Below are positions 4,951 through 59,553 of a stretch of DNA of 64,000 nt, in pieces; the first letter of the stretch is position 1; every line of letters starts with the position of its first letter. The notes under the pieces are model-generated. The model saw only the letters and a list, made by a program, of their open reading frames with translations, was not told the origin of the DNA and ran no database searches. The position numbers and the translations under genes were made by a program. This DNA comes from Vicia villosa (lineage: Eukaryota; Streptophyta; Magnoliopsida; Fabales; Fabaceae), in the NCBI RefSeq assembly GCF_029867415.1, contig NW_026705448.1, forward strand, positions 62,001 through 126,000, read 5' to 3'.

Positions 4951-4999
4951 TTTCTAAATGAGGTATTTTAAAGTGCAACCTGTAATTTAAGCCTCCTAG

Positions 5000-22730: not shown

Positions 22731-22738
22731 CTCGTTTA

Positions 22739-24242
22739 GAGACTAAAAAAAATAATTAGAGACTAAAAAAAAAATTATCCCGGTAGGCTGAAAACCTGAA
22801 AAGGCAGCCTAGGCAAAAGTTAGGAAATAAAACGTACGACTATGTCCCGTTTGGCCACCTACTCACCTTCAAGGTTCAACACATCAAAGGCACCAATCAG
22901 TCCAATCATTTTCTTCCAACAAGTGAGGGATGAGATACTCAAAGACAGATCGGCAATAGGAGAGTTGAAACTTGATTGGATTGTTTTCACATAGCTATTT
23001 CTCTTTATAAGTACTTTTTAAAGTTTTATGACAAATTCCTACTACTAGGATTTTTGTCTCCTTGTACTAATTAGCCTATTATGGCTCTCTTTCAAATCAA
23101 TACAGTTCATGCTCAAAATCAATATTTTCACTTTTTTCTGTTTTGAACGCGTAAACGTCCCAATGATAATTTTGAATGAACATATGCATTTGAATATGAT
23201 TGATGTTTATAAGAAAAACAGGAATAGCATTCAGGTAATGTCCCAATCATCTGGACATCATCCCAAAACCGGCAACATGGGAATATCCCCCCACAGAGCA
23301 ATCTTCAAGGAGTTATCTCCGGATAAGCAAGGCTCAATTAATTCCCCAACGGAGTGTTTTATCACCGACACTGAGTACGGGCATCAGAAGAAACAGTTCC
23401 CCAACAGAGATACATTTCTCAGCAGAATCCTCGATGAGATTTCCCTCTCCAACAGTATGATTCGAGGGGCCCTATCTCCAAGCTCGGACAAGATATTACA
23501 TCGAAGGATTGTTCATCTCCTTCACCCCCAGCAGGGCTGTTTAAGATCACTATCCCCAGAAGGTTGGATCCTCTACACAAAGGCTTGATCAAATAGTACA
23601 TCGGAGGATTACTCATCTCTCTTATTCCCAGTCAAGGTGCATCAAAATCAGAACCTTCAAATTACCTTCATCCCCAAGCGGCAGTCAAAGATCCCTCAAC
23701 AGAACATCCTGGTCCGTAAGGAAGTTCCCTAGCTGAGTATACTCGAACAAGATAGCAAAGATCATCAACGGTCATAATGCCATCATTTCCGAAATAACAA
23801 GCAGGGATTTATTTTCCTAACCAGAAGTTTGATACGCTCTAAACTGCATAAGTCATGTCCATACATCATACATCATACGCATATTCATACATAGCATATA
23901 ATGTTTCATGACAAACGCATACATAACATGCACGGTTCTAATTTAGTTTGAGAATTTCAACATATACATTACATGCATCATGACATTGCATGTCACTAAC
24001 TTGGTTTTTCAGGTAGACGAATATCCTCAGCAAGTTATTCTCAATCACATGCAATATTCTCATGGGTTCTATTCAGACAAGCATTCCTCTCAGATATAAT
24101 CAAACCAAAGATTCATTTTGAAGAGCTCTCTCTTTCCAAATCACTTATCAACTCTAAACAAGCAAAGCAGATACAAACTAATGGTGACTCATTCTGACAT
24201 TTCCAGGCTATACGACAGTCTAATAAACAACTTCAAATCCTT
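22739..24242 (+). other. Ogre-1 3' untranslated region
   Basis: No supported gene. It holds the covarying hairpin at 22784-22811, an open frame at 23109-23588 that has no recognisable motif, and several CCCCAGC/CCCCAAC stretches that also occur in Ogre-2. Confidence 0.7.
22784..22811 (+). other. Conserved 3' UTR hairpin, Ogre-1 copy
   Basis: Stem arms TAGGCTG (22784-22790) and CAGCCTA (22805-22811) are fully complementary. The 14-nt loop AAAACCTGAAAAGG is nearly the same as in the three Ogre-2 copies, while the stem sequence differs. It is flanked by CGG before and GGCAAAA after. Confidence 0.85.
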
Positions 24243-24610
24243 CAGATCTAAGTCGATACCTTGGACGGTTCCTTAATGATCTACCCTCAGATCTATGTCG
24301 ATGCCTTGGACGGTTCCTTAATGATCTACCCTCAGATCTAAGTCGATGCCTTGACGGTTCCTTAATGATCCACCTTCAGATCTAAGTCGATGCCTTGGAC
24401 GGTTCCTTAATGATCTACCTTCTGATCTAAGTCGATACCTCAGACGGTTCCTTAAAACAGTCAATCTTCAAGATCTAAAGCGGAAACTTCGGACGGTTCT
24501 GTAACGATCAACATTCAAAATCTAAAGCAGAAACTTTGGACAGTTCCGTAACGATCAACCTCCAAGATTTAAAGCGGTAACCTCGGACGGATCCGTAACG
24601 GTCAACACAG
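24243..24610 (+). repeat. 45-bp minisatellite in the Ogre-1 3' UTR
   Basis: Eight tandem units of about 45 bp begin near 24243, 24288, 24333, 24377, 24422, 24469, 24516 and 24563. The first five follow CAGATCTAAGTCGATGCC and the last three CAAGATCTAAAGCGGAAAC; all share GGACGGTTCC. Confidence 0.9.
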
Positions 24611-24877: not shown

Positions 24878-27800
24878 TGTTATACCCCAAAATTTGCCCG
24901 CATCTTTTTTCAAAAAAAGAAGGCAACAGACTTCTGTCTAAAAATTGGGAGTTTCATATAATCTTGGATTTTATTTCATAAATATCCTGATTTTATGAAT
25001 ACTCAGTTTTTAGGATATTTTTTATACGGTATTTTTGGTTCGCTGTACTGGTAACAATTAAATTATTATTGGTTTTTTGTTTCCCACTAATTTTTTGTAC
25101 TATATTATTTTCAAATCTCTTCCTTTCTTTTCAAATCTCTTTCTTTCAAATCAAATCCTAACTTTATTCCATACACTTTCTTTCAAATCCTACTACCACT
25201 CAAACTTTCCTTTTTTGTACGATACCACTTCATTCCCCAACGTCTCCATCCCTCTTTTCACTCTATAGATACCACTCATTTTTTCCATAAAATCTCACAT
25301 CAAATTTCACTCATCTCCCAAATTTCTATCATACTATCTCATAATTATTTTCTCTTCTTCCCCGGCAAAAATGGCAAAGTGGGCGGATACGTTTTTTCTT
25401 GTGGTCATATCTGTTTTTGTGGTGATTATGTCCTTTTTCTGTCTGCATAATCCTGAAAAATGCGGACCTGGGATGCTTGCACTCCCGTACATCTATATAT
25501 TGTTGTTTATAGCATGGGCTTTTAATCGTCATACTTAAAGTTTGTCGTATCTTTCGCTTTCAAAATAACGTACCGTTCATTATATTTGTCGTACTGTTCG
25601 TTATATTATGTAATATTTGTACTGTCAGTATTAAATATTGTATTGTCTATTGTACTATCACTTAATTATTGAGATAATATTATGTGTGTTTATTGCTAGT
25701 TAAATATTTATTTTTCTGTGCATTAAATCCTTCTCAAGATTATTATCAGTAATTTCGTTCGCGTACGGTATATTTTATTTATTTATTATGTTTGTGTTTT
25801 TCTAACAACTCATGTAAATAATTTTCACCATTAACACAACAAAAACAAAAAAGAAAAAAATTAAGTTTAAAGTTTCCACTTTAACTGTTACGTTAATGCC
25901 CGGACAGCCAGTTAACAGTCAAACCCGCTGACAGCACGATTCTCCGTGTTTGTACCATCAGTCAAATCAATCTTTTGCATTTCAAAATTCCAAGATTTTT
26001 GTTCTAGAAGTCTTCTGATAATCACATGATCAGCAGAGACTCAACACTACATAAAAATCAGGTACGCTTAACTATCTCCTACACAAACAGTCCCTAACTA
26101 GGGTTTTTGTTTTTTTTTCTTCAGGAGAACAAGTTTTTTGAGACCTCAAATGGATTTCATGGATCTCCATATGTCTCAAAGTACCACCAGACAAATTTTC
26201 AAACTTCGATTCGCTCGGACGCACAGTCAACAGCTCAAACAGTCAACAGACGACCAGTTTGACCAAAAAGTCAACAGACACTCAAAAATAATTTTTTTTG
26301 TCAACATCCATATTTTGTCAAAAGATTCATCATTTGATCAATGGTTGATCATAATTCATCAAGAAAAGTTCAGAAATCGACAAAACTCTAAGTTTCAAAA
26401 TTAGGGTTTTCTCCTAAAAAGTCAACAGAACTTTGACCGGCCATAACTCTCTCCTCGTTCATCCGAAAAATTCCAACCAAAGCTTATTTTGAAGGAAATT
26501 CAATTATATTTCAAATGCAATTGGTCCCATGGTCATTGGATTTACCATTTGGAAAGTATGAGCTCAGACATTACAGGTCATTTTCGAAGTCAACAAAAAA
26601 CAGTTTTTTGTCAAAGCCCATAACATCAAGATAACTTCTCCAAATGCAAAAAAGCTTCCAATGTAGCTTGTAGAGGACATCTTGAGGTTTCTAAAAAGTA
26701 CAAGAACTTCTTCATATGATCAAAATTGAGGGAGCTATGCCTTGTTGAAGTTGGTCATTTTTTGGGAAAATGCATGAAACCAACATTGATCAAAATTGTT
26801 TTTCTTCCAAAAGGGCCCAAGCATTTATGATCCAAACATGTTCCTAATAATGTTTAAGGCCTCCCGCGACCAACATTAGGCCCATAACATTTTTATTTCT
26901 TTTTTGATTTAATTTTACTTCATTTGAAGTTAAATTAAAAAAGAAATTATCCAAGATAATGATCCAATGCTTTGTCTTTAGCTTGAGTCACCAAGTTTGA
27001 TCCAAATTCTGAAGCATAGAGGTACAGAAGACCTATGGCAAGAGGGGTGAAGAAAATTGAAGCCATGGCCAAGACTTTAAAAGCTTTTATTCATAAAAAA
27101 TTCAAAATTTCAAAGGCACTCAAGTATGGAAGAAAAGCATGGTTGCTTAAGTTCTAAGCACTCAATCTTGCCTATATAATAGCTCGAGTCCATCAGCATC
27201 AAGGAGAAATGAATTCTCAACCAGAAACATACTTGTATCACACTTGAAAATTTCAAAGAAATTTAAAATTCGAATTTTGAGTTTAAGCTAGATTCAAGTG
27301 CCAATAATCATCCAAACACGTTCCTCAAGTAATTATGAAACTATCCCAATCATTTCCAACAATCAAAGCACCCTAAATCAAGCTCCATAGCTCACGGTTT
27401 GTTCGAACAAAAACCTACAAAAATATAATCATACATGCATATTTAACAAGATGTAATTGCATACTTGTGTTTGGTTAGATGCTCTGATCGTTTCTGGAAC
27501 TTTAATTTGATTTTAATGGATGTTTGAAGAACTTACCATTTTAGGGTTCTTGAGCTCTATTTTGGGGTTCTTCGTTTTAGGCAAAATTTCAGGAAATTAA
27601 TGGTTCTATTGAGTTCGTGAGACCCATACGAGCTCAACCATGGTCTCACAATAAATTTTTGATGCTTGTGTGGAGTTTGGATAGGTTGCAGGTTTGTAGC
27701 GACGGACAAAAACTGTAGGTAAAACCTTTACCTACGGTTACAGACTTAAGGCGACGGGCTGGAGGTTGAAGGTGACTGCGTGACGCCATCTGAATGGCCA

Positions 27801-29407
27801 GTTTGAAAAACGCGCGTTTTGTTTTGCCCCCAGATCTGGTGCTTCGCTTTCTAAGCTATTGCCATGTGCCATACATCCGTGTCCATCAGATCAATCTGAT
27901 CCCCTCATCTAACGCTCCTTGCCTTGCAAGCTCACCATAGACCCTTAGGGTCTGCCACATTGGATCATATATATTAGTATTTTCTTAATTAATTTGTTTT
28001 TTCTTGCATAATTAATAAAAAATACTTTCAAAAATCCAAAAATAATTTTAATTTCACTTTTAGATTGATAAAATGTTTAATTAATTTTTGACATGAAAAT
28101 ATTTTATATTTCTTCATAATTAAAATATTTTGTTTAATTAATTAGATAATATTTATATATTTATCTTTTAATTATTTCTAACCTATCAAAAAATCAGAAA
28201 AAAATATTTCTTTTTTTAAATTAAGTTTACATATCATGAACTAATTTTGTACATAATTAGAATATTTTTATCTTTAAGTTTAATTTATGTGTATAATTAC
28301 TTGTATAATTATATATTAATTAACTTAATAATCTCCAAAACAATTTCAAAAATCACAAAAAAAAAAGTAATTTTATTATAAAACTAATTAACAAACAATT
28401 TGGACATATTTTAGACTTAACTTTTTAGGTTTAAATTTTATTTCTAATTCTTAACCTTTTAATTAAATTAATTATGCATTAATTTTAATTAAAATCAACC
28501 ATCCAAAAATCCAAAAATATTTTCCCTTTATCTTATTACAATTTAAATTCATAGATAAATGTATAGGTTGTCAAATTCATGTAAATAGCGTAGTTTACAT
28601 TTCTCGCACAATCAATGTAATAGCGTAGATTTACCTTCCGCATTTTACATTCCCGCACTTTAATTCCTGTACATATAAAACTGCGTGTATGTCAAGAATA
28701 ATAACTGAAGCGCTAGATCACTAATCTCAAGACAAAACATATCTGAAAACAAAACACAATCACACTTGCACCTCTTAGGGTAATCCCTCTGTTACTCTTT
28801 TCAAAACCAATCATATTATTTCAAATGCAAAAGTTCAAATTTTTCTTCTGTATTCAGTCAAAGAAAACTTTCTAAAGAAATGGGAAAAAACCTTATAAAC
28901 TTAGGGTATACCTCCTAATTGCTTGCTCAATCAAAAACAACAAAAGTTCTCACATATCACTGTTTTTCCAAAACAAATTTTCAAAAGACTACACTTTGTA
29001 TATGTCCAAACAAGGATCATTACGAAGTTAAAAATCTTTTTTTTAAACCATCAAAACATCTTTCGAAAGATAAATACTTTGTATACATCCGCACAAGGAT
29101 CATTACAAAGTTAACTCTTTACAAAAATATTTAAAACCACATACAAGCATTTCAAGCAAAACAAACGATTCAAACAAGTGAGCTAAGCAATTAAGAGCCC
29201 ATGGATAACCATTGATACAAAGGGTGCTAACACCTTCCCTTTGTATAACCTACCCCCGAACCCAAAATCTCTTTAAGGTCTTTTTCTGTTTCTTTTATAA
29301 ACCTTTCCTTAATTGCATAAAATAAAAGTCGGTGGCGACTCTCTGATTTTCACAACTCAAAAATAAAAGAAGAGTCAGTTCGCATCCCACAAAAAACCGA
29401 GGCGACA
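24878..29407 (+). repeat. Ogre-1 3' LTR
   Basis: 4530 bp, starting TGTTATACCCC and ending GGCGACA, followed by ATTAG. It lacks the roughly 140-bp block found at 6761-6902 in the 5' LTR and has scattered substitutions. Confidence 0.95.
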
Positions 29408-34623: not shown

Positions 34624-36208
34624 TGTCATACCCCAATTTTTGACCTAAGATACCACCTCATATCATAGCATATGCATCATTTGCATCTCTAACAAATTGC
34701 ATAGCTTGTGTTTGCTACTTGTGACTCAGCAGGGTTTAATCAAGAAATCACTCATCAGTACAAGCAACAATCAATTAGGGTTTTGTTTTCCCTTCATCTC
34801 AAAAGAACCATCTTCACCAACAATCAACATCTGGTCCTCAAAGATTCATTTCAACAAGCTCAGAGGCTTTGAATCAACCAGATTAGGGTTTTGACTGAAG
34901 ATAGCACACCCCTGACTTTTGCTCAGGATTTGACCTAATGACTTGGGACATGACCTCAAGACCCCAAGTACATCATTTTGGCCTAATCTATTGACTCAAG
35001 ACATCTCCAACACAGGGACTGATCAACAATGAAATTTCAAATTATCAAATTAGGGTTTTTTGAACTATCAGGGACTGAAATCAGGGATCACATTTGGGAA
35101 ACCCTAAAAATCCCCAGGAAGTCAATCAAAGGTTTCAATCATCCTCAAATAATCCCTATGACAACATCCAATGGAAATTACATCTCAATTCAAGATCCAC
35201 AGTCATCAATTTCATCAGGTCGACAATTAGGGTTTTTGACCTAATTCACTGAACAACTGACTTTTTAATCAGAACATGGTGCCATAACTTAAACCATGGC
35301 TCAAGGTCCTCCAATAACTCAATATGATCCATTCATACCATTCATTTGGTGAGGATAGCTTGGTTCATTTAAAATCTCCAGAAACGCGATTCGTCTGAAA
35401 AAGTCAACTGCACAAGATCACCATTGACTTTTGGGGAATTTTGGTCAACCTTGACTTTTGAAGTTTTGAATCATCAATATATGATATATGAAGTCATTTG
35501 ATCAAGAAAAATCAAGAAAATCAATCAAGAATCAAAAAGTCAAAGTTTGACTTTTATACTTAGAAAAAATTCTAAGTGTTTTTCAATGGTTTTTTCCAAA
35601 CTTTGGAAGGGAATAACTCAAAATTTCACCTACAAACTGAAAAAAACTTCCAACATGAAAGTTGTAGATTTTGATCCAATGAACAAATTTGTCACATATA
35701 ATTTTTTTCCAAAAGATCAACCATTTAAGAGATATGGAGCTTCAAAGTTGGTATCTTTTGAAAATTTCACTTAAAACCTCATTTTCTTCAAAGTTCATGG
35801 ATCTTTTTCACCCATTTCCCTAAAGGTCTTGAAGAAACTTTCAACTAGGGTTTTGAAGTGTGTAATATGAGCTTTCCAAAATGTCCAAGAGCATGAAAAA
35901 ATATGGAGCATAGCTATGGTTTTGAATTATGCATTTAGTGATCATTTTCACTTGAAATTTCAAGCCATTTTCACTAAGTTATGAACCATTTTGCCAAATA
36001 ATGCAAGTAATGATGCATCAAGACAATAATTGAAGATATTTTCTGATTTGAAGATCATAATGGAAGAGGATAAGAAGCTTGAAGTTTAACCATGGTTTAG
36101 TCACTTTTAACCATTATGCATTAAATGTAAAGATTCCATTTTCTCTCCAAATGCCAAATCACCATTCTTTGATCAACTTGCAAAGCTTGGAGTTCAGAAT
36201 CCTTGGCC

Positions 36209-36216
36209 TATAAATA
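36209..36216 (+). promoter_or_regulatory. TATA box of the Ogre-2 LTR
   Basis: TATAAATA in CCTATAAATAGAGG, same in the 3' LTR at 53611-53618. It would give a U3 of about 1.6 kb. Confidence 0.6.
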
Positions 36217-37160
36217 GAGGTCCAAACTTCATTCAAATTCACACCAAAACCTCATAATCATAGGTTTTCTCTCTTCTTTCTTAAGTTACAAGTTTCATGA
36301 GTTTCAAAGAGGGAGAATTGCAATTTCCATCTCTTGCAATTTCTAAGCAAAGTGAGGGTTCTAACATCCCATAAACATCAAATGTGATGTGTTTGATCCA
36401 TCCACACACCCCAAAAACACTCAAATCTCAAAATCACTACCTCACTTCCATATATGCACATAATAAGCCTTATCATGCCAAAATCCACACAAGCTCATTT
36501 CTGACCAAGTTAATCATCCAAACACCATCCATGTACCATATATGAACTATCCCAATCATCATCCCTGACCTGTAACTCCAAAATCACCAAGTTTAATCCT
36601 CACTTGAGTCCTACTGCAGATCGGGTACCACAAACTGATCAAGAGGTTTTCAATCCACTCCAAGTATCCAAACATGTTCCATAAGGTCCACCGAAGGTGT
36701 TCAGATCAAGAAACAACATCTGGAATCCCTCATTTGCAGAATTCGATCCTAAGTTGTGCCGTTTTTAAGGTAAGTGTTCATGAACTTCAAACTCTATCAT
36801 ACATGCATCATAAATGAAAAATTGAGTTACCATCTTGTTTCTGCACCATCACTGAATAATAACCCTCAATCAATTGCATCATATCATGATCATACACGAT
36901 TTCACAATGATTTGTCATATTAGGGTTCTTCGTGTTCATCAGAAAATTAACCATCTTAGAACAAAAATAAATGAAATTAAAGATCACCATCATGTTCCTT
37001 ATGGAAAATCGAGTGAAATAGACCCTTTACTTGTTCAAATTGGTTCAGTTTCAGAAAAATTCAAAATCAAAATAGGGATGTGTTCTTGGCGCCATTTTTT
37101 GTTCAGAAGTTTCAAATACTTGTTTTTGAATATAATTAAATGAGTGTGTATCATAAACAA

Positions 37161-37251
37161 GCTGCGCGCCAGCTCAGTTGGTTGTTGTTTTGAGTAGTGA
37201 ACCTCAGGGCGTGGGTTCAAACCCTGGCAGGACCAAAACCCAATTTTTTTT
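37161..37251 (+). ncRNA. tRNA-like Pol III unit in the Ogre-2 5' LTR (SINE head or tRNA relic)
   Basis: A-box-like CCAGCTCAGTTGG (37169-37181) and B-box-like GGGTTCAAACCC (37213-37224) are spaced as in tRNA genes. A run of eight T (37244-37251), a Pol III stop signal, follows. The T-arm pairs only in part and no full cloverleaf is evident, so this is a tRNA-derived piece, not a tRNA gene. The 3' LTR copy is at 54563-54654. Confidence 0.55.
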
Positions 37252-38334
37252 GACACTTATTTTCTTCAATTTCTTTACAACTTCAATTAATTATTTAACC
37301 AATCAAAATTCATCATTTTCACTTCATTTTTTTACACTTCTTATTTAATAGGTATATTTTAAGAACATCCAAAAAATCACAAAAAAAATATTAATTTAAT
37401 ACATTTTTAATTAAGTTTAAAATGACATATTTTTAAGTATTTTTTATACTTTAAAATTTGTTTTTTTCATTTGATTTTTCAAACTTAATCACTTGTAAAT
37501 ATTTTGTGATCAAACCCTAATTATTTAGGTCTTAATTAAATATGAAATTTATTTTTTATCTTAATTAAGTTGACTCTTGTCAAAATTCAAACCGTTTTAA
37601 AACAAACGATCACAATTTTTCAAAACGATAAACCGTTTCTTTTTGGTTTTTCTTTTCAAAAGAAACTATTGATTAAATCTTTTTGGAATGATCAATTGAT
37701 TTTCAAACGTGGGCCTCTCGAATATTAGAGAGTATAAGTCCCTTTCCTTTTTTCTTTGTACAGTTTTTCTTTAAACAGAAAACTTCTTTCAAAACAAAAC
37801 TTTCAAACTGTTTTCAAAACGACGAAACCTCGCGTTTTTTAACAAAACAATCAACCATGTGTTATAAAATAAAACATGGGCCTCCACATAGGTATAAGTC
37901 CCATTCATGTACATGAAATTAGGTATTTCATTGTACACACACCTTTTTGTATATATCTCGTTCAATTCAATTTGTTTTTTTAACTTCGAACAACAAATCA
38001 AAAAATGAAGGTTTTCTTTAAATCTTCCCAAAAATACCATGGGCCTCCATGTAGGTATAAGTCCCAAGCCCCTTTTATAAATACTTGTTTACATAGCTTT
38101 TGAATAAACTCAAGTGGGCCTCTCCCCGAGTATAAGTCCCGAGCCCCGTGTATACAAATGGATCATGCTTACAGGTATATTTCATAAACTCCATTATATA
38201 CACACACTTTGTCATATATATGTAATTGTTCATACTCGTTCATGTTTGTCCATGTTTGTTCATACTTGTTCATGTGTTTGTTCATGTTATATATATATAT
38301 ATGCTTGTTCAACTTAGTACAACACTAGGTTCCC

Positions 38335-38600
38335 CATAGCCTCCTATTGGGCTTCGTGCAAAGAATCTCCCTAGTTTAGGTTAGGACATAGAGTATGGTT
38401 TCCCGGTGAAATCGCTCTAAGAGCTCAAACCAACTATACCATGCCTCCTCTTGGGCTTCGTACAAACGACTTGTCCCTCCCATAGCCTCCTCTTGGGCTT
38501 ACAATACAAGGACCCTCGATAGTCCCTCCCATAGCCTCCTCTTGGGCTTACAATGCAAGGACCCTCGGATAGCCTCCTCTTGGGCTTCGTACAAGGACCC
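38335..38600 (+). repeat. CTCCTCTTGGGCTT repeats in the Ogre-2 LTR
   Basis: Five copies of ATAGCCTCCTCTTGGGCTT-like sequence begin near 38335, 38440, 38481, 38530 and 38568, with GGACCCTCG between some. The 3' LTR has the same set near 55735-56000. Confidence 0.85.
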
Positions 38601-38724
38601 ACGGGCTTCTTATAAGCATCCCCAATATCCAAATCACATACCCTAGGAGATTAGACATTTATCATCTCTATGATAGGAGTATCTCATCTATATCATCACA
38701 AACAATCAATCAATCAAATAACTC

Positions 38725-38905
38725 TTTTTGCCACAAGGCTGGCTAATCAATCAAACCTTTTTGCCACCATACTGGCTGATTAATCAAAGTTTTTGTCACA
38801 AGGCTGACTTCATTGAAACTTTTGCCACAAGGCTGGCTGATTAATCAAAACTTTTTGTCACAAGGCTGACTTCATTGAAAGTTTTTGCCACAAGGCTGGC
38901 TAAAA
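38725..38905 (+). repeat. GCCACAAGGCTGG tandem repeats in the Ogre-2 LTR
   Basis: Six units of about 31-33 bp of the type TTTTTGCCACAAGGCTGGCT, alternating with TTTTTGTCACAAGGCTGACT. Repeated in the 3' LTR near 56123-56303. Confidence 0.88.
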
Positions 38906-39575
38906 AGCATCTTTATCATTCTAAGCACCATAAGTGGCATGGCCCAGGGCTTATAATGAAAAGATTTTCAAACAAAATCAAACAGATGTATGTGATGATA
39001 TAGATTAGATACATCGAACATTTAGATGAGATTTGTCTCTTTTCCTTTGCTTCTACTAGCATAAGTGGGAACTACGATTGCTCTGACTTTCTCAACATCC
39101 CTTTGAGAATACGTAGGCACAAGGTCGTATCCTTGGCGAGCAAAACTTCTCCCTCAAACCATTCAAACCTTAGCACCCGTAGACCCGAGCTACAGATGCT
39201 CTGATTCCCTCTAAGGGATATGTATGTAGAGGATCGCGATGATCTTTGCGAGCATAATCAAACAAACACCTTAGGTCCCACCTATTTCACAAGAACCTCT
39301 CAATAACATGGAATGAAAAACATAGAAAAGAAACCTATAGAGTACTATAGATACGTTGGGTGATAATACCTTCCCTTCGTATAACCAACCCTCTTACCCA
39401 AGATCTCTCCCCCACTTTTAAGGTTATTGCAGCTTTTTTCCTTTTCCTACTTTGGAAACAATAAAAAGTTTGGTCGGAACAAAAGAAAAATCATTTTTTT
39501 GAGCACTCGAGCCCAAAGAAGGCATCAGGTGTCTCATCCCGAAAAAGGATACGATTTTTCCCCGCGACAGAAAAA

Positions 39576-44599: not shown

Positions 44600-46246
44600 A
44601 CTCCTTCAAAAATCTCAATACTTTCATTGCTGTTGAATTCAGAAGCCCACAGGGAAGCCCTGATGAGAGTTTTGGATCAGGCTTTTATAGATCATGATGT
44701 GACTGTTGACCATTTTGATGGGATAATAGCCAACATAACTGCTTGCAACAATTTAAGCTTCTGTGATGAAGAACTCCCCGAGGAGGGTAAAAATCACAAT
44801 CTTGCTTTGCACATTTCTATGAACTGTCAGTCAGACTCTTTGTCCAATGTGTTGGTAGACACCGGATCTTCCTTGAATGTGATGCCAAAGACGACTCTTG
44901 CTCGCTTGTCTTACCAAGGAATGCCTATGAAGTTCAGTGGTGTAGTTGTCAAAGCATTTGATGGATCGCGAAAATCTGTTATCGGCGAAGTCAACCTTCC
45001 CATGACAATTGGTCCACATACATTTCAAATCACCTTCCAGGTCATGGACATTCAAGCTGCTTATAGCTGTCTGTTAGGACGACCATGGATCCATGAAGCA
45101 GGGGCAGTAACTTCTACGCTCCATCAAAAGTTAAAATTTGTAACAAATGGAAAATTGGTAACGATAAGTGGAGAGCAAGCCTTAATGGTGAGTCATTTAT
45201 CCAATTTCTCTTTCATTGGTGCTGATGATGTGGAAGGAACTCAGTTCCAAGGTCTCTCTTTAGAAGACGAATCTTCCAAGAAGAAAGCATCAATCTCTTC
45301 TTACAAAGAGGCGGTAAAAGTAGTGAAAGATGGAACTACCACTGGCTAGGGGCAAGTTGTGATCCCTACCAAGAATGAAACCAGAGCAGGACTCGGATGT
45401 TCACCAATGTTCTCAAACTGCACCAAGAAGGATGAAACCCTTCGTCCGATCAAAGAAACATTCATTAGTGGAGGATTCCTTAACCCAATTCCTCAAGAGG
45501 TTAATGTCCTTATCCAAGAATGCATCGAAGAAGGTCTGCCCGATACTGAAGAAGAATGGAAATGTTATCTCAATGACTCAGGATACATATCTCAGGAAGA
45601 ACCATATCCTCCTTCAGAGAAATCCAAAGGCAAAGAAACTGAGCCTGTTCCTGCAGAAATCTGGGACACCTTGGGACAACCAAGTGGAAAATATGATTAT
45701 ATGGTGAAATATACTGCACCTGAAAGTTCAAAGATTGCGATTAAAGATATTCAACCAACTGGATGGGGAGATTCCTTTGAATATAATAGTCAACCAGGAG
45801 AGGCTTATCAGCCCTGTCAATTTTCTCAGCAGCCTGAAATTACTGAAGATTTCGGATTCAACGCATCTACCAAGATTGATAACCCTGAAGATGGTTATTA
45901 TCACATAAATGCCATTTTTGAAGATGAAGGGGAAGATGGTCCCTCAATTGACTCGGAAAGTGTCGCTGACAATGAGTCTCTTCATCCTGAAGACTGGGAA
46001 ATACATCCTGAAAATTCTGAAGATTGTGACTCATCTTATGCTCTTCAAGAAGTAGAAGAAGACCGTTTCAACTCTACAAAGAACAAAGTTGACAAATCAG
46101 GACCTTCAAATCCTGCTCGACCAGCGGTCAATGTCAATACTGAAGATAATTCTGAGGGGAATTTTCCTGAATACATTATACACAGAGGAGTTCGTTGCTA
46201 CTGGAAAGCTGTTGACGTTCTGAATGTTGTTCGCCGCTCAAAGTAA
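44600..46246 (+). pseudogene. Ogre-2 aspartic protease and post-protease linker
   Basis: Same frame as gag. The catalytic motif is NVLVDTGSSLNVMPK near 44848, then YSCLLGRPWIHEAGAVTSTL. A TAG at 45347-45349 breaks the frame where Ogre-1 has Trp (VWGQ), a likely TGG to TAG change. The linker to 46246 is acidic and holds one copy of the module seen three times in Ogre-1 (45656-45778, EIWDTLGQPSGKYDY to PTGWGDSF). It ends in RRSK and a TAA (46244-46246) that overlaps the predicted GT donor at 46243. Confidence 0.85.
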
Positions 46247-46595
46247 TCACCTCGCTGTTATTTTGACCTCCTGCCTAGCCCAAAGCAGAGAGATGTTTTT
46301 TAGGGCTTTGCTTTTAAATGTTTTGTTTTGCCCAAATAAATTTGTGTATAGGGCTTTGTTTTAAAAGTTTCCCTCTTTGTCCCGCCCAAGACAAATGAGT
46401 TTGTGTTTAGGGCTTTGTTTCAAAAATGAATCATAAATAAAGTGTCATTTTGAATTCCCTACACTATGTGTTTTATTTTTTGCTTTTTTCTGGAAATGGT
46501 AATCCTAAAAAACCAAAAAAAAACTTTTCAAAAAAAATCTGCATACACTCTTGCATTCATAAATTTTCTGAAACAAATATAATTCATATGTGCAG
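46243..46595 (+). other. Predicted Ogre-2 intron between protease and RT
   Basis: 353 bp with donor GTAATC and acceptor TATGTGCAG. Splicing would join the RRSK codons to LTIDKPIE in frame, with the same split-codon phase as in Ogre-1. It contains GGGCTTTG(T/C)TTT repeats (46300-46430). Confidence 0.72.
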
Positions 46596-48700
46596 ATTAA
46601 CTATTGATAAACCCATTGAATGCAATAACCCTATGCCCTCTCCCAACTTTGAGTTTCCTGTGTTCGAAGCCGAAGAAGAGGAAGAAGAAGAGATCCCGGA
46701 CGAGATCTCCCGATTACATAAGCACGAGGAAAGAGCCATTCTGCCCCACAAAGAGCCTTTAGAAAAGATCAACTTGGGTTCTGAAGAAGACAAAAAAGAA
46801 GTGACCATTGGATCGCTGCTTGATGCTGATATCAAGAGTAAGTTGACAGACCTTCTCAAAGAATATGTTGACGTGTTTGCCTGGTCCTACCAAGCCATGC
46901 CTGGGTTGGATACCATTATTGTTCAGCTTTACTTGCCATTGAAGCCAGAATGTCCGCCAGTTAAGGAGAAATTGCGAAGGACTCACCCTGATATGGCTAA
47001 CAAGATCAAAGTGGAAGTTCAAAAACAGCTCGACGCAGGTTTTCTTGTCACCTCAGAATATCCTCAATGGTTGGCCAACATAGTGCCAGTTCCGAAGAAA
47101 GATGGCAATGTCAGAATGTGTGTTGACTACCGTGACTTGAACAAGGCCAGTCCAAAAGATGACTTTCCATTACCACATATTGACATGTTGGTTGATAACA
47201 CCGCTAAGTTCAACGTCTTTTCTTTCATGGACGGGTTCTCTGGTTATAATCAGATCAAGATGGCTCCTGAAGACATGGAGAAGACGTCTTTCATCACCCC
47301 ATGGGGTACCTTTTGCTACAAAGTGATGCCGTTTGGATTGAAGAATGCAGGCGCAACTTACCAAAGGGCAATGACTACTCTCTTTCATGACATGATGCAT
47401 AAAGAAATTGAAGTTTATGTGGACGACATGATAGCCAAGTCCAACACAGAAAAAGAACATATTGAATACCTTTTGAAGTTGTTTCAACGACTAAGGAAAT
47501 ATCAGCTTCGCTTGAATCCTAACAAATGTACTTTTGGGGTTAGATCTGGAAAACTCTTGGGTTTCATTGTCAGCCAAAGAGGAATTGAAGTAGATCCCGA
47601 CAAAGTCAGAGCTATTCAAGAGATGCCTGCACCAAAGACTGAAAAGAAAGTAAGACGATTTCTCGGACTATTGAACTATATCTCCAGATTTATCTCTCAA
47701 ATGACTGCTACTTGTGAGCCAATTTTCAAGCTTCTCCGCAAAGATCAAGGGGTTGTATGGACTGAAGATTGCCAGAAAGCGTTCGACAGTATCAAGGAAT
47801 ACCTGTTAGAACCACCAATATTGATTCCTCCAGTTGAAGGAAGACCACTAATCATGTACCTTACCGTGTTGGAAGAATCCATGGGCTGTATGCTTGGACA
47901 GCAAGATGAAACTGGTAAGAAGGAGCATGCCATCTATTACTTGAGTAAGAAATTCACAGACTGTGAGTCTCGTTACTCCATGCTCGAAAAAACGTGTTGT
48001 GCTTTGGCTTGGGCTTCAAAACGTCTCCGCCAATACATGATCAACAATACTACTTGGTTAATCTCCAAAATGGATCCGATCAAGTATGTCTTTGAAAAGC
48101 CTGCATTAACAGGAAGGATTGCCCGATGGCAAATGCTGTTATCTGAGTATGACATTGAGTACCGTGCCCAAAAAGCGGTCAAAGGAAGCATTCTCGCCGA
48201 TCACTTGGCACATCAGCCAATCAATGAATATCAATCTCTCAAGTTTGACTTTCCTGATGAAGATGTCTTATACTTGAAGATGAAAGATTGTGACGAACCG
48301 TTACCTGAAGAAGGTCCTGATCCTGGATCAAGATGGGGCCTAATTTTTGATGAAGCAGTAAACGCTTTTGGCAATGGAATTGGGGCAATCACTCCCAAGG
48401 GTACTCATATCCCGTTCTCTGCCAGATTACTATTTGATTGCACCAACAACATCGCAGAATATGAAGCTTGTATCATGGGTCTCGAAGAAGCCATTGACTT
48501 AAGGATCAAGATCCTAGACATATATGGAGATTCAGCCTTTGTGATCAACCAAATCAAAGACAAGTGGGAAACTTACCACCCTGGTTTGATTCTTTATAGA
48601 GATTATGCAAGACGTCTGTTGACTTTCTTCAACAAGGTTGAATTGCATCATATACCTCGAGATCAGTATCGAATGGCAGACGCCTTGGCTACTCTACTTC
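46596..48700 (+). pseudogene. Ogre-2 RT, degenerate RNase H and archaeal-type RNase H
   Basis: Acidic linker, then RT with VPVPKKDGNVRMCVDYRDLN, DGFSGYNQIKMA, FGLKNAGATYQR and EVYVDDMIAK (near 47408). The first RNase H (YLTVLEESMGCMLGQ, near 47857) lacks the usual first Asp. The archaeal-type RNase H keeps its acidic residues: LIFDEAVN (near 48340), AEYEACIMG, YGDSAFVI and YRMADALATL. The frame breaks by a one-base loss near 48695, just before MFKV, where integrase begins in the next frame. The open frame upstream of 46596 is intron sequence. Confidence 0.9.
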
Positions 48701-48701
48701 C

Positions 48702-50054
48702 ATGTTCAAAGTCAATCATTGGAACGATATGCCTACAGTCAGAATTACGCGCCTTGAAAGGCCCGCCTATGTGTTTGCTACTGAAGCCGTCATCGATGAT
48801 AAACCGTGGTTCCACGACATCAAACGCTTCCTTCAAACTCAAGAGTACTCACTTGGGGCATCAAACAAAGATAAGAAAACTCTAAGGTGGCTTTCTGGCA
48901 GTTTCTTCCTGAACGGAGATGTGCTATACAAAAGAAACTTCGACATGGTTTTGCTCAGATGCGTGGATAGACACGAAGCAGACATGTTAATGCATGAAGT
49001 GCATGAAGGGTCCTTTGGAACTCATTCAAATGGGCATGCAATGTCCAAAAAGATCTTAAGAGCAGGATACTATTGGTTGACAATGGAATCAGACTGTTAC
49101 AAACACGTGAAGAGATGTCACAAGTGCCAGATCTACGCAGATAAGATCCATGTGCCACCGACTCTACTCAACATTCTCTCATCTCCGTGGCCTTTCTCCA
49201 TGTGGGGTATCGACATGATTGGAATGATCGAGCTGAAAGCTTCAAATGGTCATTGTTTCATCTTGGTAGCCATTGATTACTTCACCAAATGGGTCGAAGC
49301 AGCATCTTACGCCAATGTTACAAGACAAGTGGTTGTGAGGTTTATCAAGAATAACATCATTTGCCGATATGGTGTTCCCATCAAGATCATTACTGACAAT
49401 GGTTCGAACTTGAACAACAAAATGATGAAAGAATTATGTGAGGAATTCAAGATTGAGCATCATAACTCTTCTCCTTACAGACCAAAAATGAATGGCGCCG
49501 TCGAAGCTGCTAACAAGAATATTAAGAAGATCGTCCAGAAAATGGTCGTCACTTACAAAGACTGGCACGAAATGCTGCCATTTGCTTTACATGGATACCG
49601 TACTTCAGTGCGTACTTCAACAGGGGCAACCCCTTTTTCTCTGGTATACGGCATGGAAGTTGTGCTACCCGTAGAGGTTGAAATCCCATCAATGAGAGTC
49701 CTCATGGAGACTAAGTTATCAGAGGCTGAATGGTGCCAAAGCAGATATGATCAGTTGAACTTAATCGAAGAAAAACGTATGACTGCTCTATGCCATGGAC
49801 AGTTATACCAAGCAAGGATGAAACAAGCCTTCAACAAAAAGGTTCGACCTCGTGAATTTCAAGAAGGCGACCTCGTGCTTAAAAAGATCTTGTCTTTTCA
49901 ACCAGATTCTAGGGGCAAATGGTCTCCTAATTACGAAGGCCCGTATGTTGTCAAAAGAACATTTTCTGGCGGCGCCATGACTCTTGCAACCATGGATGGT
50001 GATGAACTCCCACATCCTGTGAATGCTGATGCAGTCAAGAAATACTTTGTCTAA
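48702..50054 (+). CDS. Ogre-2 integrase
   Basis: 450 codons open to TAA at 50052-50054. Zinc-binding region with HSNGHAMSKKI and CHKCQ (49025-49135). The DDE core is complete: WGIDMIG (49203), TDNGSNLNN (49389) and AVEAANKN (49499). The C-terminal domain has EEKRMTALCHG, FQEGDLVLKK and GKWSPNYEGPYVVK. It inserts the DNA copy into the host chromosome. In an intact element it is fused to aRH; the one-base loss upstream separates it here. Start as given is the first Met of the shifted frame. Confidence 0.9.
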   Translation: MFKVNHWNDMPTVRITRLERPAYVFATEAVIDDKPWFHDIKRFLQTQEYSLGASNKDKKTLRWLSGSFFLNGDVLYKRNFDMVLLRCVDRHEADMLMHEVHEGSFGTHSNGHAMSKKILRAGYYWLTMESDCYKHVKRCHKCQIYADKIHVPPTLLNILSSPWPFSMWGIDMIGMIELKASNGHCFILVAIDYFTKWVEAASYANVTRQVVVRFIKNNIICRYGVPIKIITDNGSNLNNKMMKELCEEFKIEHHNSSPYRPKMNGAVEAANKNIKKIVQKMVVTYKDWHEMLPFALHGYRTSVRTSTGATPFSLVYGMEVVLPVEVEIPSMRVLMETKLSEAEWCQSRYDQLNLIEEKRMTALCHGQLYQARMKQAFNKKVRPREFQEGDLVLKKILSFQPDSRGKWSPNYEGPYVVKRTFSGGAMTLATMDGDELPHPVNADAVKKYFV

Positions 50055-50077
50055 AAAAGAACAAAAGAACAGCTCGG

Positions 50078-50222
50078 TAAGTCGAAAACCCGCAAAGGGC
50101 GACTTAGGCAAAAATGAGCGTCTCGGTGGACTGAAAACCTGAAAGGGCGGTCCAGGCAAAAATTAGAGACAATAAACAGAAAAATTCATCCTGGTAGATT
50201 GAAAACCTGAAAGGGCAATCTA
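50078..50222 (+). other. Three covarying hairpins in the Ogre-2 3' UTR
   Basis: Hairpin 1 has arms TAAGTCG (50078-50084) and CGACTTA (50100-50106). Hairpin 2 has TGGACTG (50127-50133) and CGGTCCA (50148-50154, one G-U pair). Hairpin 3 has TAGATTG (50195-50201) and CAATCTA (50216-50222). Loops are AAAACCTGAAAGGG or one base longer. Each is preceded by GG and followed by GGCAAAAA. They start 24 bases after the integrase stop. Confidence 0.92.
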
Positions 50223-52002
50223 GGCAAAAATTAGGGATTTATGACAAAGTAACTGCATCAGTCCATACTTCGTCACCTGAGGAGTCTTTTTCATCAAAGG
50301 ATCTTCAATCAAATCATCGCCAATCTGAAGCGACAGGCACAGTTGGAACTCAAAGTTGTTAGGGGGAATAGTGGTTATTGCTTTCAAAGTAGCCTTTTCC
50401 GCATAATTACTATTTTCAACTTTTGTAAATACTCCATGGAATCACGCCTTTAGCTGATTACCATCCTATTAAATAAATTTGAGCCTTGTGCCCATTTGTT
50501 TGCAATCTTTAATTTCTTTCAGCTTGCAAAATGACGCTTTAATTGTGTTATTCTTTTGAAAAAAAAAAAAGAAAAAATAATTTTTAAAATAAAAGCGAAA
50601 CTTTCCTTTGAGTTGTGAACAACAGAAGGAACATCAACAGCTATCTCCATAGGATGAATCAAAGATTATGATAGGAAGAAGCTCTTCTATCCCCAGTGAA
50701 GAAGCTCTTCTATCCCCAGTGAAGAAGGTCTTTTATCCCCAGTGACGAAGATTTTCCATCTCCAGTGAAGAGGTTCTTCCATCTTAATAAGAAAAGATGC
50801 TTATCATCCCCAGAGAAGATTAAAGCACGCAACACCATTCATCACCTGTGTTATCTACACCGTGTTGAAGAACATTTGCCAAGTATCTGGTTGTATTGCG
50901 ACGTCGGTCCCTCTCCAGTGTACACTTCATTATCTGTCAGTATTGTTAGCATGCATGCAACATTCATGACATTCATCATTCATACATATTTGCATCATTT
51001 ATGCATTCTTGCATTTTTCAATGTCTGCCTAAAATCACTTGTCCAGGATATATCTATCCCAAAAAAAAGAAGAAAGAAGAAAAAAAAAAGAAGAAAAAAG
51101 AAACAGGTATGGGCATGTCATCTCTCCAGTAGGTTGTCACCCATAAGCAAAAAGAACATTTTCTTTCTCCAGTTCCCCACTGAGATCATTCCTCGTGGAA
51201 GAAGTTTGCTTTAGTTTTCTCCTCTCAAAACGAAGGAGAAAATCCCCAGTCGAGTTCATTCCTCATTGGGTACAAAGTCTTGTTTGACTGTTTCTTTCCA
51301 ATTCATTCATGGATAGAACCTTGTCTTTTCCAAAAATTCAAATTCCGATTCCTCAAACAGAGTTGTGAAAAACAGGCAATAAACAATAGCCTCATCATCT
51401 GAGCAGCTTATGTCTCTTTCAAAAGCTTTTTCCTCTCAAGGAAATCAATCATGAAGACTATTTGACAATCAGGGCCTTATTACTGTTCACAAGGCTGAAT
51501 AACCAGTAATTTCCCTAGCAAAGTCTCCAGAATCATTTTATCACTTGGCTGATAATTGATCATGTCTTCAGAACCACTATCAAGAGGCTGGTAGTCGGTA
51601 ACTTTTTGTTCTGGTTATATTATTTAACATGTCTATCACCATGCTGATAGTCGGTAATATTAACCGAACCTTTGAGATGTATTTACCTTGTCAAGTCTAT
51701 CCCCATGCTGATAGTCGATAATGTCGATAGGTAAGCTTTTCTTACAAAGCTATCATTTCTCGGTGAGGCATACACTTGCTTTCCCGAAAAAAAAGAAAAA
51801 ACGGATTCTCTTCCTAAAACGGATTGAGACATCCTTCCCGGTCTCTTGTCCCCAGTGGAGTCAGTTCTTGATATCCTCTCGGTACACATATCCTTGCATC
51901 ATTCGCAATTTTGGTATCTTAGGTCCAAAATTTGCGTCTTCTGATATTTAAGTCTCTTCCACCCTATCAAAACGAAGATTTTCAATCTTCATGTCTCAGG
52001 TT
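50223..52002 (+). other. Ogre-2 3' UTR remainder
   Basis: No gene is supported. It holds the 23-bp repeats at 50678-50783, an AAG-rich tract at 51060-51105, many scattered CCCCAGT motifs and three copies of GCTGATAGTCGGTAA-like sequence between 51589 and 51725. Confidence 0.75.
50678..50783 (+). repeat. 23-bp minisatellite with CCCCAGTGAA
   Basis: Units GAAGCTCTTCTATCCCCAGT plus GAA begin at 50678, 50701, 50724, 50747 and 50770; the last is partial. Confidence 0.92.
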
Positions 52003-52025: not shown

Positions 52026-55000
52026 TGTCATACCCCAATTTTTGACCTAAGATACCACCTCATATCATAGCATATGCATCATTTGCATCTCTAACAAATT
52101 GCATAGCTTGTGTTTGCTACTTGTGACTCAGCAGGGTTTAATCAAGAAATCACTCATCAGTACAAGCAACAATCAATTAGGGTTTTGTTTTCCCTTCATC
52201 TCAAAAGAACCATCTTCACCAACAATCAACATCTGGTCCTCAAAGATTCATTTCAACAAGCTCAGAGGCTTTGAATCAACCAGATTAGGGTTTTGACTGA
52301 AGATAGCACACCCTTGACTTTTGCTCAGGATTTGACCTAATGACTTGGGACATGACCTCAAGACCCCAAGTACATCATTTTGGCCTAATCTATTGACTCA
52401 AGACATCTCCAACACGGGGACTGATCAACAATGAAATTTCAAATCATCAGATTAGGGTTTTTTGAACTATCAGGGACTGAAATCAGGGATCACATTTGGG
52501 AAACCCTAAAAATCCCCAGGAAGTCAATAAAAGGTTTCAATCATCCTCAAATAATCCCTATGACAACATCCAATGGAAATTACATCTCAATTCAAGATCC
52601 ACAGTCATCAATTTCATCAGGTCGACAATTAGGGTTTTTGACCTAATTCACTGAACAACTGACTTTTTAATCAGAACATGGTGCCATAACTTAAAACATG
52701 GCTCAAGGTCCTCCAATAACTCAATATGATCCATTCATACCATTCATTTGGTGAGGATAGCTTGGTTCATTTAAAATCTCCAGAAACGCGATTCGTCTGA
52801 AAAAGTCAACTGCACAAGATCACCATTGACTTTTGGGGAATTTTGGTCAACCTTGACTTTTGAAGTTTTGAATCATCAATATATGATATATGAAGTCATT
52901 TGATCAAGAAAAATCAAGAAAATCAATCAAGAATCAAAAAGTCAAAGTTTGACTTTTATACTTAGAAAAAATTCTAAGTGTTTTTCAATGGTTTTTTCCA
53001 AACTTTGGAAGGGAATAACTCAAAATTTCACCTACAAACTGAAAAAAACTTCCAACATGAAAGTTGTAGATTTTGATCCAATGAACAACTTTGTCACAAT
53101 AAATATTTTTCCAAAAGATCAACCATTTAAGAGATATGGAGCTTCAAAGTTGGTATCTTTTGAAAATTTCACTTAAAACCTCATTTTCTTCAAAGTTCAT
53201 GGATCTTTTTCACCCATTTCCCTAAAGGTCTTGAAGAAACTTTCAACTAGGGTTTTGAAGTGTGTAATATGAGCTTTCCAAAATGTCCAAGAGCATGAAA
53301 AAATATGGAGCATAGCTATGGTTTTGAATTATGCATTTAGTGATCATTTTCACTTGAAATTTCAAGCCATTTTCACTAAGTTATGAACCATTTTGCCAAA
53401 TAATGCAAGTAATGATGCATCAAGACAATAATTGAAGATATTTTCTGATTTGAAGATCATAATGGAAGAGGATAAGAAGCTTGAAGTTTAACCATGGTTT
53501 AGTCACTTTTAACCATTATGCATTAAATGTAAAGATTCCATTTTATCTCCAAATGCCAAATCACCATTCTTTGATCAACTTGCAAAGCTTGGAGTTCAGA
53601 ATCCTTGGCCTATAAATAGAGGTCCAAACTTCATTCAAATTCACACCAAAACCTCATAATCATAGGTTTTCTCTCTTCTTTCTTAAGTTACAAGTTTCAT
53701 GAGTTTCAAAGAGGGAGAATTGCAATTTCCATCTCTTGCAATTTCTAAGCAAAGTGAGGGTTCTAACATCCCATAAACATCAAATGTGATGTGTTTGATC
53801 CATCCACACACCCCAAAAACACTCAAATCTCAAAATCACTACCTCACTTCCATATATGCACATAATAAGCCTTATCATGCCAAAATCCACACAAGCTCAT
53901 TTCTGACCAAGTTAATCATCCAAACACCATCCATGTACCATATATGAACTATCCCAATCATCATCCCTGACCTGTAACTCCAAAATCACCAAGTTTAATC
54001 CTCACATGAGTCCTACTGCAGATCGGGTACCACAAACTGATCAAGAGGTTTTCAATCCACTCCAAGTATCCAAACATGTTCCATAAGGTCCACCGAAGGT
54101 GTTCAGATCAAGAAACAACATCTGGAATCCCTCATTTGCAGAATTCGATCCTAAGTTGTGCCGTTTTTAAGGTAAGTGTTCATGAACTTCAAACTCTATC
54201 ATACATGCATCATAAATGAAAAATTGAGTTACCATCTTGTTTCTGCACCATCACTGAATAATAACCCTCAATCAATTGCATCATATCATGATCATACACG
54301 ATTTCACAATGATTTGTCATATTAGGGTTCTTCGTGTTCATCAGAAAATTAACCATCTTAGAACAAAAATAAATGAAATTAAAGATCACCATCATGTTCC
54401 TTATGGAAAATCGAGTGAAATAGACCCTTTACTTGTTCAAATTGGTTCAGTTTCAGAAAAATTCAAAATCAAAATAGGGATGTGTTCTTGGCGCCATTTT
54501 TTGTTCAGAAGTTTCAAATACTTGTTTTTGAATATAATTAAATGAGTGTGTATCATAAACAAGCTGCGCGCGCAGCTCAGTTGGTTGTTGTTTTGAGTAG
54601 TGAACCTCAGGGCGTGGGTTCAAACCCTGGCAGGACCAAAACCTAATTTTTTTTGACACTTATTTTCTTCAATTTCTTTACAACTTCAATTAATTATTTA
54701 ACCAATCAAAATTCATCATTTTCACTTCATTTTTTTACACTTCTTATTTAATAGGTATATTTTAAGAACATCCAAAAAAATCACAAAAAAAATATTAATT
54801 TAATACATTTTTAATTAAGTTTAAAATGACATATTTTTAAGTATTTTTTATACTTTAAAATTTGTTTTTTTCATTTGATTTTTCAAACTTAATCACTTGT
54901 AAATATTTTGTGATCAAACCCTAATTATTTAGGTCTTAGTTAAGCATGAAATTTATTTTTTATCTTAATTAAGTTGACTCTTGTCAAAATTCAAACCGTT

Positions 55001-56967
55001 TTAAAACAAACGATCACAATTTTTCAAAACGATAAACCGTTTCTTTTTGGTTTTTCTTTTCAATAGAAACTATTGATTAAATCTTTTTGGATTGATCAAT
55101 TGATTTTCAAACGTGGGCCTCTCGAATATTAGAGAGTATAAGTCCCTTTCCTTTTTTCTTTGTACAGTTTTTCTTTAAACAGAAAACTTCTTTCAAAACA
55201 AAACTTTCAAACTGTTTTCAAAACGACGAAACTTCGCGTTTTTTAACAAAACAATCAACCATGTGTTATAAAATAAAACATGGGCCTCCACATAGGTATA
55301 AGTCCCATTCCTGTACATGAAATTAGGTATTTCATTGTACACACACCTTTTTGTATATATCTCGTTCAATTTGTTTTTTTAACTTCGAACAACAAATCAA
55401 AAAATGAAGGTTTTCTTTAAATCTTCCCAAAAATACCATGGGCCTCCATGTAGGTATAAGTCCCAAGCCCCTTTTGTAAATACTTGTTTACATAGCTTTT
55501 GAATAAACTCAAGTGGGCCTCTCCCCGAGTATAAGTCCCGAGCCCCGTGTATACAAATGGATCATGCTTACAGGTATATTTCCTTCATAAACTCCATTAT
55601 ATACACACACTTTGTCATATATATGTAATTGTTCATACTCGTTCATGTTTGTCCATGTTTGTTCATACTTGTTAATGTGTTTGTTCATGTTATATATATA
55701 TGCTTGTTCAACTTAGTACAACACTAGGTTCCCCATAGCCTCCTATTGGGCTTCGTGCAAAGAATCTCCCTAGTTTAGGTTAGGACATAGAGTATGGTTT
55801 CCCGGTGAAATCGCTCTAAGAGCTCAAACCAACTATACCATGCCTCCTCTTGGGCTTCGTACAAACGACTTGTCCCTCCCATAGCCTCCTCTTGGGCTTA
55901 CAATGCAAGGACCCTCGATAGTCCCTCCCATAGCCTCCTCTTGGGCTTACAATGCAAGGACCCTCGGATAGCCTCCTCTTGGGCTTCGTACAAGGACCCA
56001 CGGGCTTCTTATAAGCATCCCCAATATCCAAATCAAATACCCTAGGAGATTAGACATTTATCATCTCTATGATAGGGGTATCTTATCTATATCATCCCAA
56101 ACAATCAATCAATCAAATAACTCTTTTTGCCACAAGGCTGGCTAATCAATCAAACCTTTTTGCCACCATACTGGCTGATTAATCAAAGTTTTTGTCACAA
56201 GGCTGACTTCATTGAAACTTTTGCCACAAGGCTGGCTGATTAATCAAAACTTTTTGTCACAAGGCTGACTTCATTGGAAGTTTTTGCCACAAGGCTGGCT
56301 AAAAAGCATCTTTATCATTCTAAGCACCATAAGTGGCATGGCCCAGGGCTTATAATGAAAAGATTTTCAAACAAAATCAAACAGATGTATGTGATGATAT
56401 AGATTAGATACATCAAACATTTAGATGACATTTGTCTCTTTTCCGTTGCTTCCACAAGCATAAGTGGGAACTACGATTGCTCTGACTTTCTCAACATCCC
56501 TTTGAGAATACGTAGGCACAAGGTCGTATCCTTGGCGAGCAAAACTTCTCCCTCAAACCATTCAAACCTTAGCACCCGTAGACCCGAGCTACAGATGCTC
56601 TGATTCCCTCTAAGGGATATGTATGCAGAGGATCGCAATGATCTTTGCGAGCATAATCAAACAAACACCTTAGGTCCCACCTATTTCACAAGAACCTCTC
56701 AATAACATGGAATGAAAAACATAGAAAAGAAACCTATAGAGTACTATAGATACGTTGGGTGCTAATACCTTCCCTTCGTATAACCAACCCTCTTACCCAA
56801 GATCTCTCCCCCACTTTTAAGGTTATTGCAGCTTTTTTCCTTTTCCTACTTTGGAAACAATAAAAAGTTTGGTCGGAACAAAAGAAAAATCATTTTTTGA
56901 GCACTCGAGCCCAAAGAAGGCATCAGGTGTCTCATCCCGAAAAAGGATACGATTTTTCCCTGCGACA
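52026..56967 (+). repeat. Ogre-2 3' LTR
   Basis: 4942 bp, close copy of the 5' LTR with the same internal repeats. The tRNA-like unit is at 54563-54654, with GCGCGCGC in place of GCGCGCC before its A box. Followed by ATCTA. Confidence 0.96.

Positions 56968-59329: not shown

Positions 59330-59553
<224 letters not shown>

Follow-up and report, generated by a model that had tools for sequence, protein, structure and literature searches.

In plants, the element for nuclear expression (ENE) of Evade/Copia93 and of other transposons is a structured RNA between the last open reading frame (ORF) and the 3′ long terminal repeat (LTR) (accessible part of PMC12501189). In animals, the RNA transport element (RTE) of intracisternal A particle (IAP) elements, the musD transport element (MTE) and the constitutive transport element (CTE) of Mason-Pfizer monkey virus (MPMV) are cis RNA structures that take full-length retroelement RNA out of the nucleus, and those of mouse IAP and musD give splicing-independent export (accessible part of PMC12786077). 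Ogre elements, which make up 45% of the Lathyrus sativus genome and a large share of some legume genomes, carry hypervariable tandem repeats between pol and the 3′ LTR that vary freely and seed satellites (PMC7004042, in its accessible part). Here, we analysed 64,000 nt of Vicia villosa (contig NW_026705448.1, 62,001–126,000; hereafter the window, in whose positions all coordinates are given), which holds two Ogre-type LTR elements, A and B. We found that several Ogre-type subfamilies carry a two-stem RNA module, mostly three per sampled copy, in the 3′ untranslated region (UTR) right after pol, and that compensatory changes preserve the pairing of both its stems, P1 and P2. We put the probability that this array is a selected sense-RNA structure at about 0.93.

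The array differs from each of these systems. The ENE uses U-rich internal loops to form a triple helix with poly(A), whereas the array consists of repeated modules that, on the coding strand, are A-rich where unpaired. An ENE-type triple helix was considered and not supported: the repeats of U-rich internal loops set between G-C pairs are absent, and the unpaired parts are AAAA, GG and GGCAAAAATTA. While the Ogre/Tat tandem repeats vary freely, the module keeps its stems and joints across subfamilies and precedes the tandem repeats. Size and repetition set it apart from the CTE, RTE and MTE, and it matches no Rfam family: Rfam gave 0 matches at the gathering score in the window, to described ribozymes or to other families, and four weak matches in 50040–50300, none of which reached gathering (best 14.6 bits, with 38 required; E = 0.24). 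A tRNA identity was also considered and found unsupported. As the earlier note on this DNA had supposed, no description of such hairpins was found in Rfam or in the literature located on Ogre 3′ UTR repeats, including the accessible parts of PMC7004042 and PMC6317226, with subscription papers lying mostly outside the search; six loop-string variants searched in full texts returned no paper.

The integrase-bearing ORF of element B (48642–50054, + strand) ends with a TAA codon at 50052–50054 and is followed by three hairpins on the + strand, at 50078–50106, 50127–50154 and 50195–50222. The earlier note had read these as a row of 7-bp stems in which five of seven positions vary with pairing kept, and both statements hold: the stems (P2) pair 7/7, 7/7 (with one G-U) and 7/7, positions 2–6 differ among the three, and neither the outer T-A nor the inner G-C changes. 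Its claim of a near-identical loop was mostly correct, except that the first loop is 15 nt long (AAAACCCGCAAAGGG) and not the quoted 14-mer; the loop is also not open, being itself folded, and an outer stem (P1) had been missed. Folding gave the module order as P1 (4–5 bp), two unpaired bases (mostly GG), P2 (7 bp), an AAAA bulge on the 5′ side, P3 (3 bp), a GAAA or GCAAA cap, the 3′ arm of P2, an unpaired joint (e.g. GGCAAAAAT or GGCAAAAATTA) and the 3′ arm of P1.

Unit B1 (50072–50119) has P1 GCTC (50072–50075)/GAGC (50116–50119), P2 TAAGTCG (50078–50084)/CGACTTA (50100–50106), AAAA at 50085–50088, P3 CCC/GGG with a GCAAA cap, and the joint GGCAAAAAT at 50107–50115. Unit B2 (50120–50170) has P1 GTCTC (50120–50124)/GAGAC (50166–50170) and P2 TGGACTG (50127–50133)/CGGTCCA (50148–50154), and unit B3 (50188–50238) has P1 ATCCT (50188–50192)/GGGAT (50234–50238) and P2 TAGATTG (50195–50201)/CAATCTA (50216–50222); both carry P3 CCT/GGG, a GAAA cap and the joint GGCAAAAATTA, at 50155–50165 and 50223–50233, respectively. 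Element A contains one unit on the + strand, A1 (22778–22825), behind a truncated integrase at a place that matches the array of B, with P2 TAGGCTG (22784–22790)/CAGCCTA (22805–22811), P3 CCT/AGG, a GAAA cap and the joint GGCAAAAGTTA (22812–22822). Its P1 is weak (TCC/GGA with one base skipped); in 17 fetched units of A1 type P1 is TCCC/GGGA. In addition, element A probably has the remains of another unit at 22729–22743 (+ strand); compared with B2-type units in other copies, it retains the P1 arms GTCTC and GAGAC and has lost the inside.

A lone hairpin of this kind is meaningless, because 7-bp hairpins with 14–15 nt loops are common, with 96 on the + strand of the window. Random 7-mer pairs drawn from the window paired 7/7 in 254 of 200,000 draws, and within the four window units 7/7 was reached by cognate arms alone, with non-cognate arms giving 5 or 6. 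An outer helix of at least 4 bp is not rare by itself when registers are free (approximately 29% of random draws).

The host genome (2.03 Gb, 1888 contigs) was searched with the exact 14-nt loop string, which gave 10,176 matches (5040 + 5136) compared with 11 (9 + 2) for the reversed control string. We fetched 60 short stretches around places among 100 listed of the 10,176, all in the first 34 Mb of one contig. The stretches were picked by the exact loop string, so loop constancy is biased upward and the constant loop of the earlier note is partly an effect of fetching; the stems were not selected on. The C-terminus of integrase lies upstream of the array in 60/60 fetched stretches, and the first canonical P2 starts 12–33 nt after the stop in 52/60 and 65–156 nt after it in 8/60, some of these longer distances being due to an uncounted earlier divergent unit. 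Together with the two window elements, the 62 stretches hold 174 canonical units, three in 53 stretches, two in 6 and one in 3, with related copies counted separately and not as independent events. The cap is GAAA in 138 units, GCAAA in 35 and AAAA in 1, and is closed by C-G in 87, U-G in 85 and U-A in 2. This count covers canonical-strand matches and leaves out 32 loop-like matches (≤ 3 mismatches) on the other strand, two loop-like matches with few pairs (L070, 2 pairs; L094 unit 3, 3 pairs, or 6/7 in another register), and L094 unit 1, which was spotted by eye and pairs 7/7 with a changed loop. In a blind sample of ten-kb stretches no canonical unit was seen in the 20 scanned for the loop, nor in all 24 by a joint-anchored scan, which is unsurprising because there is one loop string per approximately 200 kb.

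P2 was fully paired in 166/174 units and paired 6/7 in the other 8, with 14 different fully paired arm combinations. The 1218 P2 cells comprised 1101 Watson-Crick, 108 U-G, 1 G-U, 4 A-C and 4 other cells. P1 reached at least 4 bp in 168/174 units, compared with 912/3887 when the flanks of units with different P1 were swapped. When 44 distinct units were tested, the covariation score and the numbers of paired and of doubly changed cells all lay above 500/500 shuffles, and sliding the partners lowered pairing to 23–53%. The same three measures were above 500/500 shuffles when P1 was included for 29 units, i.e. the 44 distinct rows minus 15 whose 3′ joint was unclear or not 11 nt long. Covariation, judged within one plant genome, was therefore found over many copies, which is what the earlier note had staked its proposal on. 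Furthermore, G-U wobbles on the coding strand number 109 cells and A-C 4, whereas decay of cytosine on both strands would give both equally; many of the wobble cells are a single inherited state shared by many copies. This favours sense RNA, in which the structure is most likely read, over a DNA cruciform, so of the two alternatives that the earlier note had offered, a selected RNA or a cruciform, the former is supported.

The changes that keep pairing were read by subfamily and unit order and are not a computed count of events. In P2 they affect positions 1 (U-A, C-G) and 6 (C-G, U-G, U-A) of unit 1, positions 3, 5 and 6 of unit 2, and positions 4, 5 and 6 of unit 3. In P1, unit 1 has GCTC/GAGC or ACCC/GGGT, unit 2 has GTCTC/GAGAC or, in one copy, GTCCT/GGGAC, and unit 3 has ATCCT with GGGAT or AGGAT, or TCCC/GGGA. 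One copy of a further subfamily (L094) shows P2 TGAATCG/CGATTCA in unit 2 and P3 CUC/GAG in unit 1. Across subfamilies, orthologous units have C-G, U-G and U-A at one position, a series that fits stepwise change under selection for pairing.

Several observations weigh against a selected structure. The number of pair types was not above shuffles in the 44-unit or the 29-unit test (500/500), and pairs changed on both sides exceeded shuffles weakly (9/500 and 42/500). Among the 14 arm pairs, 46 of the 182 non-cognate combinations are likewise fully paired through wobble. The copies share ancestry, and the fetched ones were taken from the 34 Mb, by the exact loop string, as described above. The energies of the four window units including P1 are modest (z −2.09, −2.37, −0.56 and −1.09). 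The folding energy of the whole stretch reached only z −1.17, so energy alone would have missed the structure. In addition, the module is not universal, as none of these units follows the integrase stop of L023, an Ogre relative.

As stems change freely while staying paired and the unpaired parts remain, the RNA appears to be read by its shape and loops, and repetition of the module suggests a multivalent or cooperative binder. The stems would hold the constant unpaired parts in shape, namely the GG/GGCAAAAAUUA internal loop, the AAAA bulge and the GAAA-type cap, and these would amount to several copies of one putative protein-binding site. The array could then recruit a host export or messenger ribonucleoprotein (mRNP) factor, perhaps Gag, and full-length intron-containing Ogre RNA could reach the cytoplasm and be used there. 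The transport elements of the CTE, RTE and MTE type lie near the 3′ end of their retroelements, and in the window the array likewise follows the last ORF and precedes the 3′ LTR. Ogre of pea and Medicago has an intron between its gag-pro and pol ORFs, and only part of the transcripts lose it (accessible part of PMC6317226). The place behind pol and the partly kept intron resemble animal retroelements with transport elements, and by this analogy we tentatively favour an export-type cis element akin to their 3′ transport elements as one possible function. In plants, direct studies of the export of LTR element RNA are lacking according to the accessible part of PMC12786077. Position and analogy alone cannot separate export from packaging or protection, both of which are close rivals for what is a putative function, and the array would also be in spliced RNA.

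Gag may instead bind the repeated module and pick Ogre RNA for virus-like particles. In retroviral genomic RNA, psi likewise consists of several short hairpins whose loops are purine-rich or of GNRA type, and a row of hairpins that share GNRA-type caps and constant, purine-rich unpaired parts suits a multivalent Gag site in an element that encodes Gag. However, retroviral packaging signals, psi included, are mainly in the 5′ leader, whereas the units stand behind pol at the 3′ end, where spliced and unspliced RNA would contain them alike; a model search of the window gave no array match in the 5′ leaders or in the region upstream of pol. We consider packaging rather unlikely.

Less probable again is that the array, with no role in export or packaging, shields the long 3′ UTR from decay or aids translation. 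The short distance from the stop to the first P2 in 52/60 stretches and the approximately 2 kb of 3′ UTR that follow in element B would suit such a role, and the ENE, also a 3′ UTR structure, stabilises the RNA of the plant element Evade (PMC12501189, in its accessible part). However, the ENE design, in which U-rich internal loops take up the poly(A) tail, is not seen in the A-rich loops of the array, the first recognised unit lies 65 nt or more past the stop in 8/60 stretches, and unspliced RNA stops translation upstream of pol, where the model search placed no array. 

Pairing might also persist with no selection, if quasi-palindrome correction, in which the template is switched within the hairpin while it is reverse-transcribed or replicated, equalised the arms and copies inherited the result. 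B3 and A1 do show the kind of difference that one switch would leave, with two adjacent pairs altered on both sides; however, switching restores Watson-Crick identity, and the 108 U-G cells show wobbles that are stable over many copies, P1 and P2 change separately, and the unpaired parts are constant, which together make this explanation very improbable. A cruciform or a structure in minus-strand complementary DNA is the least credible, for although pairing exists on the other strand save for the wobbles and antisense folds are partly almost as stable, the excess of G-U over A-C on the coding strand speaks against it and the four window units including P1 fold better in sense (−14.9, −16.7, −10.8 and −12.7 kcal/mol) than in antisense (−13.0, −11.9, −7.4 and −12.3 kcal/mol).

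A compact covarying module at a steady place provides a handle for reporter work, in which one arm can be broken and then re-paired with the other. It could account for the kept part of an otherwise hypervariable 3′ UTR, and, with 10,176 loop-string matches in one genome, it stands as a candidate new RNA family.

Divergent units, claimed in subfamily III and in the stretch L032 only, differ in the part enclosed by the stems. All five subfamily III copies (L046, L056, L066, L067 and L081) have, beside canonical units, a unit with P1 ATCCC/GGGAT, P2 CAAACC/GGTTTG and the joint GGCAAAAATTA, in which a five-base cap replaces the part from AAAA through P3 to GAAA. An extra unit between the divergent units and the stop of L046, seen by eye, was dropped since the fold lacks it and its energy is ordinary (z −0.62). 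L032, found by the model search of 20 blind-sample stretches, has two units at 3131–3242 (minus strand) that keep P1, P2 (6 and 8 bp) and a joint containing GCAAAA and have unrelated loops; the model gave E = 1.1e-4 for one and 0.23 for its neighbour. This stretch has no match to the gag, reverse transcriptase (RT) or integrase queries. Judged from these few units, the core would seem to consist of P1, P2 and the joint, with the cap as an accessory. Scanning the window and L019–L042 with a generic descriptor (P1, P2 and a GGCAAAA-like joint) gave 15 matches compared with 8 in block-shuffled sequence, so the descriptor is unspecific. In viral contigs, four scans turned up the bare 16-mer in 18 stretches, with no stem of at least 5 bp around it in any of them, and nothing else; in bacterial and archaeal genomes the loop-plus-joint pattern had no match.

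The relative L023, whose integrase is 74.6% identical to that of element B, carries a series of twelve tandem hairpins in its 3′ UTR (about 6420–6945, minus strand), each with ATAACACT or a close variant as its loop. Their arms alternate between the TTCGCG/CGCGAA type and TCTGCG/CGCAGA, two forms with two positions changed on both sides, and 10/12 pair 6/6. A scan of L023 gave 24 loop-like matches, 12 in the array and 12 scattered, and a 91-nt piece folds at z −3.92. These hairpins may be an analogous array of different sequence, the two forms within one element being a lead and not proof. The modules would then be an undescribed modular class of cis RNA, and subfamilies may have swapped array types, with the GGCAAAAATTA module in A, B and the 60 copies and the 12-unit AUAACACU hairpins in L023; we regard this as somewhat unlikely. 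If true, intron-bearing plant retrotransposons would have their first known system for RNA transport or packaging, with thousands of sites in one plant genome. Another Ogre copy, at 4977–8303 of L022, lacks pol and the array, its gag (93.5% identical to that of B) running straight into LTR-like sequence.

Elements A and B have the same orientation and the domain order of the Ogre/Tat lineage, and their pol regions are approximately 70% identical in DNA. Element B (34624–56967, + strand), which carries B1–B3, has LTRs at 34624–39569 and 52026–56967 that are 98.9% identical; element A (6594–29407, + strand), which carries A1, has LTR pieces at 6594–11258 and 24878–29407, 97.4% identical across the longest piece. 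In both, two LTRs flank gag and pol, with gag, RT, RNase H and integrase domains found, and the arrays stand between the last ORF and the 3′ LTR. Element B has separate ORFs at 45350–46246 and 46441–48885; in the latter, a second RNase H (RVT_3, residues 668–751) follows RT_RNaseH (468–570), and the next ORF (48642–50054) carries Integrase_H2C2 and rve. This is the Ogre/Retand order, in which the second RNase H is placed between RNase H and integrase (accessible part of PMC6317226). The RT/RNase H and integrase ORFs of B overlap in different frames at 48642–48885, so its pol is interrupted or frameshifted. Stop-codon readthrough was not supported, as the frame closes again 8 codons past the stop. 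The 3′ UTRs also contain tandem repeats of 45–47 nt (24242–24607, element A) and 23 nt (50675–50783, element B), of the hypervariable kind known for Ogre. Elsewhere in the window, an almost pure TC dinucleotide run of 215 bases (59336–59550) lies downstream of a copia-type integrase ORF.
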